Positions 1 through 6,731 of a DNA stretch of 64,000 nucleotides are shown here, one piece after another. This DNA is from Polyangiaceae bacterium. Lineage in GTDB: Bacteria; Myxococcota_A; Polyangia; Polyangiales; Polyangiaceae. Below the pieces are notes generated by a model. It did no database searches. It was given only the letters and a program-made list of their open reading frames with translations, and was not told the origin of the DNA. A program made the position numbers and the translations under genes. The stretch lies in assembly GCA_009780955.1 (NCBI GenBank), contig WQZB01000005.1, forward strand, positions 1 to 64,000, written 5' to 3'. The stretch's first letter is position 1; each line of letters starts with the position of its first letter.

Positions 1-123
1 GACCGCTTTCAAGTTGACGCGAGATCGAGGCGGCGGCGAGGAGCGGACCGGAACAGCCTGCTTCGGCTTTGAGGACCGCACCGCAGCCGCCAACGAAGAG
101 ATCGCGTCAAATCGAAAGCGGTC
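1..123 (+). repeat. Class-1 TIR element, copy A
   Basis: This 123-bp element begins with GACCGCTTTCAAGTTGACGC and ends with GCGTCAAATCGAAAGCGGTC. The two ends are inverted repeats of each other apart from a small AAG/GAT difference. It begins at the first base of the window, so its left flank is unseen. It is near-identical to the copies at 42173, 48212 and 48952. No transposase is encoded inside, so it is a MITE-like or REP-like non-autonomous repeat. One frame is open through it and joins the following membrane-protein gene, but that N-terminal extension is repeat-derived and is not taken as coding. Confidence 0.9.
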
Positions 124-157
124 AGCGGCCTCACCTTTGCATCAATTTGCCGGCATC

Positions 158-739
158 ATGGACGAAGTGGTGCACTCGAACGAGCAACGAAGCGTGCTTT
201 TCCAAAACTGGTGGTCGTTTGTGCTTCGCGGGCTGGCAGCGATTCTTTTCGGCCTCGCCGCCTTCGCCATACCCCACATCACGCTCCGCGTGCTTATCGC
301 GGTTTTCGCAGCCTATGCCCTTGTTGAAGGTATTTTGAGCATTTTGGGTGCCATGCGTGCAATCCGCAACGAGAAGCGATCGCTGCTTCTGCTTTTGACG
401 GGCCTTGTAAGCGTGGCTGCAGGTCTTATGGCGCTTTTCGCGCCGGCGCTCACCAAGATCACAGTCCTTTACGTCATCGCGGCATGGGCATTGTTCACCG
501 GCGTTCTGGCGCTGGTAACCTCGATTCGCCTGCGCAAATTCGTCGAAGGCGAATGGCTGCTTGGCTTGAGCGGCCTGCTTTCGATTCTCTTTGCAATCTT
601 GATTGTGGCCTCGCCACGTGTCGGCGCGCTCGTCATGATTTACCAAATTGGCTTTTACGCGATGGCGTTTGGCATAATCCTTCTTGCCGTTGGTTTCCGG
701 CTCAAGCAGCGCGGCGATACCCCCCACATTATCAGCTAG
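158..739 (+). CDS. HdeD-like DUF308 membrane protein
   Basis: This 193-residue protein has six hydrophobic segments (about 21-38, 43-66, 74-94, 100-124, 132-151 and 155-180) separated by short charged loops. That is the layout of the HdeD/DUF308 inner-membrane family, whose E. coli member is linked to acid resistance. The role here is not shown. The frame is open upstream to base 14, but those codons come from the class-1 repeat (1-123), so the ATG at 158 is preferred. No clear Shine-Dalgarno sequence precedes it. A class-2 hairpin cluster starts two bases after the stop codon and separates this gene from the convergent PilZ gene. Confidence 0.75.
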   Translation: MDEVVHSNEQRSVLFQNWWSFVLRGLAAILFGLAAFAIPHITLRVLIAVFAAYALVEGILSILGAMRAIRNEKRSLLLLLTGLVSVAAGLMALFAPALTKITVLYVIAAWALFTGVLALVTSIRLRKFVEGEWLLGLSGLLSILFAILIVASPRVGALVMIYQIGFYAMAFGIILLAVGFRLKQRGDTPHIIS

Positions 740-740
740 A

Positions 741-884
741 GGGGGCAGACACGGAGGTCTGCCCCTACAACCAAAAAAACGCATATTTCGTAGAGGCGTA
801 TGGCCATACGCCTCTACACGCAACCGCCAATAAAACGCATCAACACGCATATTCGTAGGGGCGGCCCCCTGTGGCCGCCCTTTT
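741..884 (+). repeat. Class-2 hairpin triplet
   Basis: Three palindromes stand in a row: 741-767 (core CAGAC...GTCTG), 790-817 (GTAGAGGCGTATGG and its complement) and 855-880. They are joined by similar A-rich spacers of the type AACCAAAAAAACGCATAT. The array lies exactly between the convergent HdeD-like and PilZ genes. Arms and spacers match the other class-2 arrays in this window (2849, 23256, 44549, 53849, 56311). Confidence 0.85.
855..884 (+). terminator. Possible intrinsic terminator from a class-2 hairpin
   Basis: An eight-pair stem (GGGCGGCC with GGCCGCCC) around a six-base loop is followed by TTTT. It could end transcripts from the HdeD-like gene. It is also the third hairpin of the class-2 array, so terminator function is inferred from structure only. 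Confidence 0.5.
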
Positions 885-893
885 CGACAGCGG

Positions 894-2714
894 TCAGTGG
901 TGCGTGCGCGAGTGCTTCTTCTTCTTCACATGCGCCTCGGGCGCTTTGTCACCGGCTTGGCCTGCCTTGGCAAGAACGAGTTCAAGGGTATCGCCCTTGC
1001 CACGCACTTGGTAGTTTGGAACACCGTCTTTGAAGGTCACGGTGAGCTCGGCGCCACCGGTTTCGTTGGCCACACGAATGGCCGCAATACGCGAATCTTT
1101 CGCGGCAAGCGGCCCTGCTGCTTCGAGCGACTTGCGCCCTGGAATAACCACCGTAAAGCCTGCCGGTTGCGATGCACCATGAATCTTCTCGATCGCGCCG
1201 TCCATCTTGATACGCATCACGTTGCCGTGGCCAACTGGGCCATTGCCAAACGGCGTGACTTTGAGCTTCTTGGGCCCTACAGAATTAGCGGAATTGGCGG
1301 AATTCGCGTTCGCGATCGATGTGTCGCTCGAAGCATCGCTCGCGGCGAGCGCTTTGGCCTGAGCGGCAAGGGGATCATCCTGTCTAGCGGCAGACGCGAT
1401 GGGCGCGATGGGTGCAGCCGCCAACGCTACCGAGGCGGGCGGAGCTGCAGACGAAGACGGCGCGCCATTCGCGCTACTAGCCACCGCCACACTTTCGGCA
1501 GGCGCCACGCTCGCAGCAGGCGCGGGCTTATGCAACGCGATGGCTGCCAGCGTGATCGCTGCCGCCGTTGCACCCGCAACCGCGATCCTCTTTTTGGTGA
1601 TTTTGAAGTGCGGCTTGTTGAGTGCGTGGACCTTCTCGTCGACTTCGCCACCACGCACGACTTTGCGCCCCGCCGCACGCAAGCCGCCACCCGGCGGAGG
1701 CGCGGTTGTCCGGCGAACGGGCGCCGCCAGATCGCCCTGCGCCCCGCCCTTTGCCGATGCCCGCGACGCAAGCACGGCGACCGTGGTTTTTGCACGCTTC
1801 GCCCACCGCGCCAGGGCGGGCCCAATCTTCGCGGTTGCTAGCGCGACGGGATTACGCCTGCCCTGCTCGGATTCGCCGCAGGTGCCATCGGTTTTGATGT
1901 CGGGCATTGCTTCTGGCGTGGTACGCGCGGATGCGTTGGAATCATCTTGATCGTCAATCGATGCATCTTGCACGGAAGGCTGCACAGAAGGCTCATCATG
2001 TGAGCTTGCCTCGCTTGCCATCGGTGACGACGCGAGCGCTTCGGTGCCCACGGCGGCAAGTGCGGCAACCGCCACAGCTTCGCCGTTCGTCATAGCGGAG
2101 CGCGCCGCCTTGTCGTCGTAGCGAAGCGTTACGACGAGCTGCGGAATGCGCGACTCACGCTCCACTTCCACCGACACACGATCGATGAATGCCGGGCGAC
2201 GCTCGCCGTTCGTTGCGTCTTCGAGTTCGAGCCCTTTGCCGACCTGAAGGAAACCGAGTTCGCTGAATGCCGTGACGCTCGATCCGTGAGCGTTCTTGAT
2301 ACGCGCACGCATCGGCGACGCGAGTCCTTCGATGTGCAGACGCACCTTCCGACCATCAGGCACCATGGGGAGTGTGCCGTTTTCGCCCATGCCGACAATG
2401 CGCTTGAGTAGCGCGGTGCTCTGGTTATCGAGGTTGGTAAAGCGGATGCCAAATTCACCACCCTGAGACCCAAGCTTTTCGTTCCATGCAACCTCGCCCG
2501 ATGCAACGACCGACATGCCTAACCCTGCGTCGAAGCAGCACCTGACCGGTTGGCCGATCTCGGGAAGGTAGGCCGTTTTTAGTTGCATTCCCTTTTCAGA
2601 AAGATTGACCGCCTGGGCTTCGAACGACGGGTCAAGCGTGCCACCCATTTCCACGACGCCATCGAAAGGAATTCGGTGTACGCGAGGCGCGCGGCGATCA
2701 GGTTGAGAATTCAT
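894..2714 (-). CDS. PilZ-domain protein with a membrane anchor and AMIN-like domain
   Basis: This is a 606-residue protein. Residues about 6-108 look like a PilZ domain (DRRAPRVHRIPF near the start, NLSEKGMQL in the core), which in other proteins binds cyclic di-GMP. A second beta-rich region follows at about 115-200, then a long Ala/Ser/acidic linker. A single membrane span lies at about 376-395 (IAVAGATAAAITLAAIALHK). After another Ala/Ser linker, an AMIN-like domain sits at about 483-585, and the tail is Lys/His-rich. The start at 2714 is chosen because GGAGGAA lies eight bases upstream. An in-frame upstream start at 2768 lacks such a site. The order suggests cytoplasmic signal sensing coupled to a periplasmic wall- or secretin-binding module; that role is an inference. 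Confidence 0.75.
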   Translation of the reverse strand: MNSQPDRRAPRVHRIPFDGVVEMGGTLDPSFEAQAVNLSEKGMQLKTAYLPEIGQPVRCCFDAGLGMSVVASGEVAWNEKLGSQGGEFGIRFTNLDNQSTALLKRIVGMGENGTLPMVPDGRKVRLHIEGLASPMRARIKNAHGSSVTAFSELGFLQVGKGLELEDATNGERRPAFIDRVSVEVERESRIPQLVVTLRYDDKAARSAMTNGEAVAVAALAAVGTEALASSPMASEASSHDEPSVQPSVQDASIDDQDDSNASARTTPEAMPDIKTDGTCGESEQGRRNPVALATAKIGPALARWAKRAKTTVAVLASRASAKGGAQGDLAAPVRRTTAPPPGGGLRAAGRKVVRGGEVDEKVHALNKPHFKITKKRIAVAGATAAAITLAAIALHKPAPAASVAPAESVAVASSANGAPSSSAAPPASVALAAAPIAPIASAARQDDPLAAQAKALAASDASSDTSIANANSANSANSVGPKKLKVTPFGNGPVGHGNVMRIKMDGAIEKIHGASQPAGFTVVIPGRKSLEAAGPLAAKDSRIAAIRVANETGGAELTVTFKDGVPNYQVRGKGDTLELVLAKAGQAGDKAPEAHVKKKKHSRTHH

Positions 2715-2776
2715 GGTGGGAGTTCCTCCGGACAACTCCGTGTAAGGAGGAACGCCCACCTGGGCCAAATTAATGA

Positions 2777-2798
2777 GACCGCTTTCAAGTTGGCGCGA
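2777..2798 (+). repeat. Class-1 left-end fragment
   Basis: GACCGCTTTCAAGTTGGCGC matches the class-1 left terminus with one substitution (A to G). No right end follows. It lies upstream of the PilZ-AMIN gene in the gap to the carboxylase gene. Confidence 0.7.
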
Positions 2799-2848
2799 CG
2801 GGATGGTCGCAGCCGGCTGTCGTTGCCCATCGTTGTGTTGATTGGCTT

Positions 2849-2930
2849 GTAGGGGCGCGATTTATCGCGCCCTTGGCATTGATAATGGTACCGATCCCTC
2901 GCGATCGGGCGCCATGAATGGCGCCCCTAC
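2849..2930 (+). repeat. Class-2 hairpin pair
   Basis: Two hairpins flank a spacer that contains TACCGATCCC. The left one has core CGATTTATCG and the right one has core CCATGAATGG. The array ends ten bases after the carboxylase stop codon on the minus strand. Confidence 0.8.
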
Positions 2931-2939
2931 ACGCCTTCA

Positions 2940-4514
2940 TCAAAGAGGAATGTTCGTGTGCTTCTTTGGCGGGTTTTGATCGCGCTTGTCTTTGAGCATT
3001 TCGAGGGCGTTGTAAAGGCGCGCACGCAGCGTGCGTGGATAGATGACTTCGTCGATGAAACCGAGCTCTGCGGCCTTGTACGGGTTTGCAAACTTCTCGC
3101 GGTAGTCGGCAATGAGAGCCGCGCGCATGGCAGCGGGATCGGAAGCCATTTCGATCTCTTTGCGGCTGACGATGTTGACCGCACCGTCAGGCCCCATGAC
3201 CGCGATTTCGGCGGTTGGGAACGCGAGGTTGATGTCGCCCCGAATGTGCTTGGACGACATGACGTCGTACGCACCACCGTAGGCTTTGCGGAGAATGACG
3301 GTAACCTTTGGCACCGTGGCTTCGGCGAACGCAAAAAGCAGCTTTGCCCCGTGACGAATGATGCCGCCGTACTCTTGATCGGTGCCTGGAAGAAAACCCG
3401 GAACGTCGACGAAAGTAACGAGCGGAATGTTGAAGCAGTCGCAGAAGCGCACAAAGCGCGCGGCCTTTTGCGAAGCATTCATGTCGAGCACACCCGCGAG
3501 CACCTGCGGCTGGTTGGCGACGACACCCACGGCCCGGCCACCGATGCGCGCAAAGCCAACCACGATATTGGCAGCAAAATCACCGGCAATTTCGAACAAA
3601 TTTTCGTCGTCGACAACCGCGCGAATGACGTCTTTGACGTCGTAAGGCTTGTTCGACTCGATGGGGATCATGGTGTCGAGCGCCGACACTTCGCGCAGTG
3701 GTGCGTCGTGCGTGGGCCTGAACGGCGGATCCTCTTGGTTGTTGAGCGGCAAAAAGGAGAGTAGCTCGCGGATCTGCGCAACGCATGTACGGTCGTCGTG
3801 CGAAGTGAGGTGGCAAACGCCGCTCTTGCTTGCATGCGCGCTTGCGCCACCGAGTTCTTCCTTCGTTACCTCTTCGTGCGTGACAGCGCGAATGACGTCG
3901 GGGCCGGTGATGAACATGTAGCTCGTGCCCTCGACCATCAAGATAAAATCAGTGATGGCAGGCGAGTACACCGCGCCTCCCGCGCACGGGCCCATAATGG
4001 CGCTGATTTGCGGGATGACTCCGCTCGCAAGCGTGTTTCGCAGAAAGATGTCGGCGTAGCCAGCAAGCGACTCGACGCCTTCCTGAATGCGCGCGCCACC
4101 CGAGTCGTTGAGGCCAACGACCGGTGCTCCCACCTTCATGGCAAGATCCATCACTTTGCAAATCTTCTGCGCGTAGGCGCCCGAAAGCGAACCGCCGAAC
4201 ACGGTGAAGTCTTGGGCAAAAACGAAGACTTTGCGGCCGTCGACGAGACCGTAGCCCGTGACCACGCCGTCACCCAAAATCTTTTGCTCTTGCATTCCGA
4301 AATCGATGCAGCGATGCGTGACGAATCGATCGAGCTCGATGAATGATCCGGGGTCCAAAAAAAGATCGATGCGCTCACGCGCCGTAAGCTTGCCGGCTTG
4401 GTGTTGTTTTTTAATCCTTTCTACACCGCCGCCGACGAGCGCGTTTTCGTTCATCTCGTCGAGAAGCTTCATGTGGTGGGGCAAGGGAGCGGAGGGGCTT
4501 TGCGAGATTGGCAT
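2940..4514 (-). CDS. pccB: Acyl-CoA/propionyl-CoA carboxylase carboxyltransferase subunit
   Basis: This 524-residue protein matches the beta (carboxyltransferase) subunit of biotin-dependent acyl-CoA carboxylases. It moves CO2 from carboxybiotin to propionyl-CoA or acetyl-CoA in the cytoplasm. The N-terminal half carries [28 protein letters not shown] and the [12 protein letters not shown] oxyanion loop. The C-terminal half carries [13 protein letters not shown] and [12 protein letters not shown]. The length is typical. The ATG at 4514 has AAAGG seven bases upstream; a TTG start at 4550 is possible but weaker. It lies 59 bp after the KamA-like gene and may share its transcript. No biotin carboxylase subunit is in the window. 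PCC rather than ACC specificity is the usual assignment and is not proven here. Confidence 0.9.
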
Positions 4515-4573
4515 GGGAATACCTTTATAGAGGCCTTGGGCCTCAGGCAATAAGGGTCCTCTGGTGAGCTACT

Positions 4574-5707
4574 TTAAAATGACGGAGGGTCGACCGGCGG
4601 GTCGATGTAAGGAACCTGTTCGCCGCGAAATGTGCGAAGCACCGTGATACCCGCGCTTTTCGACACAACCCAGTTGGGCAATAGCGCAACCTTCCCGTTG
4701 CCCCCCGGCGTATCACAAATGAACTTTGGCAGCGCAATGCCCGTAAGCCGCCCTTGGAGCTTCTCGAGAATTGCAATGCCCGCAGCCAGCGGCGTTCGAA
4801 GGTGCCCGGTACCGCGCACAGGATCGGCCTGCAATAGGTAATAGGGGCGAACCCGCGCGCGAACGAGCCCTCGGAAAAGCGCCTCGAGCACGTCGGCGTC
4901 GTCGTTGACGCCGCGCAGCAAGACGGACTGGTTGTTGACCGGAAAACCCGCGTCGACCAGGCGCTCGCACGCTGCCATCGACTCCGGCGTGAGCTCCTTC
5001 GGGTGGTTGAAGTGCGTCATGATCCAAATTGGGTGATGCTTGCGCAACGCACGGATTAGCTCGCTCGTGACGCGCATCGGCAACGTCACCGGAACGCGCG
5101 TTGCAAGGCGGATCGTCTCGACCGACCGGATCGCACGAATGGCAGCAACGAGCCGCTCGAGCCGCGGTGTTGCCATGACCATGGGATCGCCGCCGCTCAC
5201 AATCACATCGCGGATTTCCGGGTGCGCGGCGATCCAGGCAAGAGCAGGTTCGAGGCACGCGGTGCCCGCTGTAGAAGACGGGCCGCCGCCGTTGCCAACC
5301 ATGCGTGAACGCGTGCAGAACCGACAGTAGACCGCGCACCTGTCCGTCGCAAGGAGCAGAACCCGATCGGGATAGCGGCAAACGAGGTTCGGCGCGACCT
5401 CGTGAGCGACTTCGCCAAGCGGGTCGACCAGATCGCCGGGGATCTCTCTAGACTCTTCGATGCGCGGCACGCACTGCAAGCGCACGGGGCACGAGGGATC
5501 GTGCCGGTCGCAAAGAGACAAATAATAAGGAGTAATAGCGATCGGCATGCCTGCTTTTTCGGCACGGCGCGCGCCTTCGAGTTCTTCCTGCGTGAGCGCC
5601 ATCGCACGCGCAAGGCCATCGACGGAGCGCACCGATTTGCGGATTTGCCCCTTCCAATCACGCGGTCCTCGTGCGGCATCTCTAGTGCGCGTGCGCGTCA
5701 AGGGCAT
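4574..5707 (-). CDS. KamA/EpmB-type radical SAM aminomutase
   Basis: The protein has 377 residues. The radical SAM signature CAVYCRFC (pattern CxxxCxxC) binds the 4Fe-4S cluster. SGGDPM and NQSVLLRGVNDD follow in the barrel, and the C-terminal CDTPGGNGKVALLPN segment is the PLP-proximal motif of the lysine 2,3-aminomutase family. Members either isomerise free lysine to beta-lysine (KamA) or modify a lysine of elongation factor P (EpmB). The length lies between the two, and no efp or genX is nearby, so the substrate is undecided. The ATG at 5707 overlaps the end of the upstream parvulin-like gene by 26 bp, which suggests translational coupling. Confidence 0.85.
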   Translation of the reverse strand: MPLTRTRTRDAARGPRDWKGQIRKSVRSVDGLARAMALTQEELEGARRAEKAGMPIAITPYYLSLCDRHDPSCPVRLQCVPRIEESREIPGDLVDPLGEVAHEVAPNLVCRYPDRVLLLATDRCAVYCRFCTRSRMVGNGGGPSSTAGTACLEPALAWIAAHPEIRDVIVSGGDPMVMATPRLERLVAAIRAIRSVETIRLATRVPVTLPMRVTSELIRALRKHHPIWIMTHFNHPKELTPESMAACERLVDAGFPVNNQSVLLRGVNDDADVLEALFRGLVRARVRPYYLLQADPVRGTGHLRTPLAAGIAILEKLQGRLTGIALPKFICDTPGGNGKVALLPNWVVSKSAGITVLRTFRGEQVPYIDPPVDPPSF

Positions 5708-6731
5708 GTCCCGCGTCGTTCGTGTCGACCTTCACCGTTGCGAGGGCCGCTTCGTCGATTTCAACCTTCACGTTTTTGCGCAGGTCGGCCAAAAGCGCAT
5801 CTTCTTCTGCACGGAGTTTTTCCTGCGCAAGCTTGACGCGAATGGTCCGCTCGGCTTCCTCGAAAGAGCGTTCGTGTGCGGCGAGCTTCTGCGTGAGACG
5901 CACGACGTAGAACTTACCGCCTGAGGCTATGACCTCGTCGGCAACGTCACCCACCTTGGCGATCGCGAATGCCGCGACCCTTACCTCTTCGGGCACTCGC
6001 CCGTTCTCGCCGCGCGGGTCGCCCGGCGGAGAAACAATGCCAACGTCGCCCGCGAGATCGATGGGCGTGCTCGAGCGCGCCGCGGGATCGATCGACTTCG
6101 CACGCACAACGAAGCCCCAGTCGGCCGCCGTTTTGGCTTTCTTCGCGGCAGCGAGTGCCTCGCGCCCTTGGGCATCGCTCGCAGCCGCAAGGAGCGACAG
6201 ACGACGCCGTTCTGGATCTTTGTAGTCTGCACGATGTGCCTCGAAGTAGGCGCGCACCTCATTCTCGGGCAAATCAGCGGGAGCCGGAGCGCCTTTGCGC
6301 GCCTCGGCGAGCATGGCATCGCGCAAAACGGCCCGGAGCTCTTGCTGCGCAAGTGGGTCCTTGTCGTAGCCTTTGGCCACGGCTTCCGTCGCGAGAAGCT
6401 TGACGGTAATCATTTCGTCGAGCAGCTCTTTGCGGCGCTCCGGCGAGCCGTAGCGAAGCCTGTCGAATGAATTCATGTGTTCGAGCGCTGCAGCGAAATC
6501 GCCCAATGTAATGGTGTCGCCCGCAACTTCGGCAATGGGTTTTTGTGCTTGCTCGGGTGTGAGCCGTGCCGCCGCCGTCGTGGTGACGGCGCCTGCGTCG
6601 AACGCCGCGCCGTGCTGACTCGATCTCTTGCACCCTGCAAGCATCGCGCTTTCGCTCGCGCCAATCGCGACGGCCGCGACAAAAGGAACAGCGGTCGCGC
6701 AGACCAACCAAAGGCGAACGTAGCCTTTCAC
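5682..6731 (-). CDS. Parvulin-like (SurA/PrsA type) peptidyl-prolyl isomerase lipoprotein
   Basis: This 349-residue exported protein starts with GTG. Its N-terminal hydrophobic stretch ends in the lipobox-like AMLAGC (Cys about 34). Residues 60-150 resemble the SurA N-terminal chaperone helices ([28 protein letters not shown]). About 155-300 is a PpiC-like region, with [15 protein letters not shown] and [21 protein letters not shown] near its end. A charged coiled-coil tail follows. Such proteins assist folding of outer-membrane or secreted proteins in the periplasm. The core is divergent, so isomerase activity is uncertain. It is divergently oriented from pyrH, with a 41-bp gap, and heads the kamA-pccB group. 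Confidence 0.75.

Follow-up and report, generated by a model that had tools for sequence, protein, structure and literature searches.

The window analysed here is the whole stretch of 64,000 nucleotides from contig WQZB01000005.1 of a Polyangiaceae bacterium. On its minus strand, the ORF at 894–2714 runs from an ATG at 2714 to a stop at 894–896 and is translated into a protein of 606 aa (P0001). M1 is invariant across 27 aligned proteins, and the sequence GGAGG is present upstream, ending ten bases before the ATG. Scans for a consensus promoter and terminator gave nothing exceeding shuffles, and a defence-system library gave no match. The gene can be divided as follows.

894–2714, minus strand: whole gene of the PilZ-PilZ'-TM-AMIN-like protein, 606 aa (translation; 40 of 41 family genomes have relatives)
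2394–2699, minus strand: PilZ domain 1, residues 6–107, with RR at 7–8, R14 and an NLSEKG motif at 37–42 (Pfam, 45 bits; motif table)
2103–2360, minus strand: putative second, degenerate PilZ-like domain, residues about 119–204 (hhalign; Pfam PilZ above the cut-off in L051 and L052)
1587–2102, minus strand: long disordered cytoplasmic linker, residues about 205–376, with a conserved RRTTAPPPGGG (alignment, motif counts)
1530–1586, minus strand: single membrane span, residues 377–395, flanked by basic residues on its N side (N-in, C-out) (Kyte-Doolittle scan)
1266–1529, minus strand: flexible periplasmic linker rich in Pro/Ala/Ser, about 88 residues (residue composition)
945–1265, minus strand: putative AMIN-like domain, residues about 484–590 (hhalign; best PDB profile match M. 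xanthus PilQ, E 0.16)
897–944, minus strand: short C-terminal tail rich in Lys/His (translation)

A search with P0001 finds matches at E ≤ 0.001 in 40 of 41 genomes from the same taxonomic family, including the window's own genome (G000). The only family genome without a match, G001, is 80% complete. In a Polyangiaceae MAG (L005), residues 1–606 are matched, with 63% identity in the best segment. Alignments were built from 30 loci of the family genomes and L005, leaving out L006 (the window itself) and L007 (the same place as L005). This gave 30 N-terminal modules (A3), 28 C-terminal domains (A1), and 27 proteins holding both ends (A2); L016, L019, and L034 were excluded from the full-length set, as their two ends did not turn up in a single frame. 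Averaged over columns, identity is 51% in the N module and 50% in the C domain, compared with 33% across the full length. A sequence-only reading of this gene had proposed the order PilZ, linker, one membrane span, and AMIN-like module. This order is borne out, and in the 27 aligned proteins a single reading frame preserves the two ends and the layout. Such conservation indicates more than a chance fusion, and judged from these alignments the PilZ-AMIN-like protein is a conserved family.

Sampling at the class level gave matches in 70 of 115 genomes. All 16 genomes from the same order (G000 counted) belong to these, and many of the weaker matches span PilZ alone. Sixteen class-level loci were inspected by eye, four from the same order (L044–L047) and twelve from other orders. 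In eight of these twelve (L048, L050, L051, L052, L053, L055, L057, and L059), PilZ and PilZ' occur together with a span and an AMIN-like end. A contig end truncates L056, L058 has both PilZ domains and the span without the C domain, and a lone PilZ without a span is seen in L061 and L062. At the phylum level, 130 of the 140 sampled match, and among the matches listed, the C domain is reached in the same order only. No relatives were found in the viral contigs searched.

The Kyte-Doolittle scan places a hydrophobic stretch at the expected position in all 27 aligned proteins. It is the only one at the threshold used in 26 of them, and L033 has two. The 15 residues preceding the span carry a net positive charge in 22 proteins. 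The periplasmic linkers are 64–150 residues long among the aligned relatives (88 in P0001), with P/A/S/T/G making up 51–75%. The single span, the first PilZ domain, and the conserved layout are direct results of these computations. Two short motifs were seen in the linkers. RRTTAPPPGGG (1683–1715, minus strand; residues 334–344) is conserved within the otherwise variable cytoplasmic linker, and a looser form of it is present in 25 of 27 proteins. VPLFGxTPxxT, in the periplasmic linker (for example at residue 399 of L030), is seen in 17 of 27 relatives and is missing from P0001 and its closest kin.

The first PilZ domain is matched by Pfam PF07238 at residues 6–107 with 45 bits, against a gathering cut-off of 22.5, and this is the sole Pfam family matched by P0001. 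At E ≤ 1, every one of the 27 aligned proteins matches PilZ, with 5.1e-16 as the best value. The sole NCBIfam match of P0001, TIGR02266 (a Myxococcota PilZ paralog family), stays below its cut-off with 28.8 bits against 68.7. The earlier reading overlooked the second PilZ at about residues 119–204, where P0001 has no Pfam match. The equivalents of this domain in L051 and L052 pass the Pfam PilZ cut-off with 24.7 and 24.9 bits, two of the nine fragments scanned. In the other-order members, domains 1 and 2 align in register (hhalign probability 94.2, 74 columns), and domain 2 of the family is homologous to domain 2 of the other orders (98.6). PilZ 1 against PilZ 2 gave a probability of 0.7 for the family alone and 11.9 with the other orders added. 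Based on these profiles, the duplication is made clear by the other-order members, whereas its signal is lost within the family alone, and the assignment of the second domain as PilZ' is supported. A PDB profile search with the N module returned urease and cytochrome chains at E 0.07–0.26, which are taken as chance. Two PilZ domains with an output domain are also described for PixB of M. xanthus, which binds c-di-GMP; its output domain is a GNAT acetyltransferase, and the available part of that description mentions no span or AMIN domain (PMC8316039).

The motif table of 41 N modules bears on c-di-GMP binding. R14 is present in all of them, and the (D/N)xSxxG motif, NLSEKG in P0001, in 32. A canonical RxxxR ending at R14 is found in four (L009, L024, L048, and L057), and the other 37 are non-canonical; most have RR, then five residues, then R14. 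P0001 contains R7-x3-R11, yet R11 is not conserved whereas R8 and R14 are. The window genome has five GGDEF matches, each with a GG(D/E)EF motif, and c-di-GMP is therefore likely made. One GGDEF protein (L097, G000:C25:6590-7060) has an N-terminus resembling an FHA domain by eye. With the second motif kept and the first having an altered Arg spacing, c-di-GMP binding by the PilZ module is plausible but uncertain. The module may instead have lost this binding, leaving a constitutive scaffold that joins the cell wall to a cytoplasmic protein partner. The RR-x5-R spacing of most members, the loss of the second motif in 9 of 41, and the degenerate second PilZ would fit such a scaffold; RR, R14, and (D/N)xSxxG are nonetheless retained in most members, and the four canonical RxxxR sequences also speak against it. 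We regard a non-binding scaffold as possible, on the unlikely side.

The earlier reading had suggested a domain search by HMM and took missing HMM support for either domain as a sign against it. In that search PilZ exceeds the Pfam cut-off and AMIN (PF11741) is matched at E ≤ 1 in none of 27 family members, P0001 included, so that by Pfam the AMIN part fails; the more sensitive profile-profile comparison backs it. Here, 30 Pfam AMIN matches taken from the family genomes served as the reference alignment. With the pooled profile, the C domain against AMIN gave an hhalign score of 40.2 over 85 columns; the family alone gave 36.7 over 43 columns, and the more distant members 37.4. The best of 40 column shuffles gave 11.9, 12.7, and 14.9, respectively. 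The other-order members alone gave 29.8. Column shuffles remove strand periodicity and are a mild control; the comparison of AMIN with PilZ 1 and PilZ 2, at 11.6 and 11.6, is the fairer one. For the family alone, it is only the C-terminal half of the domain that aligns, and its counterpart is the first half of AMIN. When the target AMIN proteins were reversed, whole-sequence E-values reached 0.047–0.21 at best, whereas the true proteins gave 2e-05 to 4e-08. Based on these profiles, AMIN homology of the C-terminal domain is supported. Two residues of the domain, Gly513 and Phe561, are invariant.

It could be argued that the C-terminal domain is another small beta domain and not AMIN. Such a domain would explain why the family has no Pfam AMIN match and why the PDB profile search gave M. 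xanthus PilQ only at E 0.16, ahead of PCSK9 prodomains, which start at 0.67. Against it, the hhalign values are well above the shuffled and PilZ controls, and Pfam AMIN matches that stay below the cut-off (E 0.0025–0.027) lie at the right place in three of the ten more distant members. We consider a non-AMIN domain very improbable. Structure models of the window protein and L005 reached a mean pLDDT of only 47.3 and 50.9. The AMIN domains of PilQ and AmiC are homologous-looking beta domains; unlike P0001, these proteins have a secretin or amidase context and no cytoplasmic part, and the P0001 domain lies beyond the Pfam AMIN threshold.

The gene neighbourhood shows no constant operon partner across 21 neighbourhoods, as called by a crude gene caller. 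A carboxyltransferase-type cluster is nearby in five of them, and the commonest neighbour cluster includes kinase-like proteins and is too mixed to interpret. In the window, the neighbours at 14–6731 are ordinary: a DUF308 membrane protein, a carboxyltransferase, a lysine 2,3-aminomutase-like radical SAM protein, and a rotamase-type chaperone. The same genome encodes a second membrane PilZ protein (L001, G000:C68:9319-9639), with PilZ, a long disordered linker, and one apparent span; its tail is Pro/Ala-rich, without an evident periplasmic domain.

Alg44 of P. aeruginosa has the topology of an inner-membrane PilZ protein, and its periplasmic domain is of the membrane-fusion type; it is not known to have a second PilZ or an AMIN domain. 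Alg44 is part of the alginate machinery, whereas P0001 has no membrane-fusion type Pfam match and the 21 neighbourhoods show no conserved operon as for an Alg44-like co-polymerase. The resemblance lies in a c-di-GMP-binding PilZ domain carried by an inner-membrane protein that belongs to a complex spanning the envelope, as described for this alginate co-polymerase (PMC4443731). In PflA, an AMIN-like beta-sandwich is part of a flagellar scaffold. By comparison with PflA, or with Alg44 in alginate export, the AMIN-like domain might bind a protein or a polysaccharide-export partner rather than peptidoglycan. AMIN-like sandwiches can be scaffold parts (PMC11870540), and the VPLFGxTP motif, seen in 17 of 27 members, might serve as a docking peptide. 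The lack of a conserved operon partner in the 21 neighbourhoods and the absence of this motif from P0001 and its nearest relatives weigh against partner binding, which seems quite unlikely to us.

The link to a secretin proposed in the sequence-only reading has been weakened. That reading named secretin or peptidoglycan binding as what the c-di-GMP level could be connected to; the secretin would here be PilQ of the type IVa pili, which carries AMIN domains. Of the 41 family genomes, 38 indeed have PilQ (TIGR02515) over the cut-off, the exceptions being G000, G020, and G035. Six genomes were examined for PilM, which exceeds the cut-off in four of them, G000 and G020 being the other two. Thus, the PilZ-AMIN-like protein is kept in G000 and G020 where neither PilQ nor PilM exceeds the cut-off, and it does not occur only with both, as would be the case for a part of the type IVa pilus machine. 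Provided that the assemblies miss nothing, these two genomes refute an obligatory PilQ role. No constant neighbour was seen either, and coupling to PilQ is considered very unlikely. The window genome has two secretin matches and no Pfam AMIN domain; 33 of the 41 family genomes contain such a domain. In G004, a member of the same genus, both PilQ and PilM exceed the cut-off, so type IVa pili appear to have been lost in G000. The protein is retained where the type IVa pilus appears lost, suggesting a role beyond pili.

We tentatively favor, somewhat short of an even chance, a bitopic inner-membrane protein that works by placement as a wall-tethered cytoplasmic PilZ module, with c-di-GMP acting on PilZ. 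The tandem PilZ module would sit in the cytoplasm. The AMIN-like domain, in the periplasm on its long flexible tether, would most likely grip peptidoglycan, perhaps septal or polar, like known AMIN domains, and so park the PilZ module at certain cell-wall sites. Binding of c-di-GMP to PilZ would then set clustering or cytoplasmic partners at those sites. Peptidoglycan binding, c-di-GMP binding, and the choice of site are what we infer here. Long low-complexity linkers on both sides of the membrane suggest placement rather than a rigid transmembrane switch, and the length and composition of the periplasmic linker make a rigid signal across the membrane unlikely. LapD, which relies on a degenerate EAL domain together with a HAMP relay, differs in this respect, as the long flexible linkers make a HAMP-type relay unlikely for the PilZ-AMIN-like protein. 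The LapD/LapG system is similar in that the cytoplasmic c-di-GMP state is described as being read out in the periplasm (PMC3032545, PMC5231407). The earlier reading did not know this combination of domains as a characterised system, and no description of PilZ with AMIN was found in the literature searched, which covered few subscription papers; a single protein that combines PilZ with a membrane span and an AMIN-like domain is apparently undescribed there.

In Myxococcus, a c-di-GMP burst at cytokinesis has been suggested to localise a landmark protein that may bind peptidoglycan and that contributes to the placement of PilQ; in the part of the source available, this protein is postulated and not named (PMC11255338). 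The AMIN domains of PilQ are described as peptidoglycan-binding and required for polar recruitment (PMC10653833). It can be speculated, with little confidence, that the present family is a c-di-GMP-controlled, peptidoglycan-reading landmark of Polyangiales and related orders, in which the wall domain would recognise the septal or polar wall and PilZ would time the recruitment of clients. With PilZ and an AMIN-like domain in one chain, the protein may be a concrete, testable candidate of the postulated landmark type in Polyangiales.
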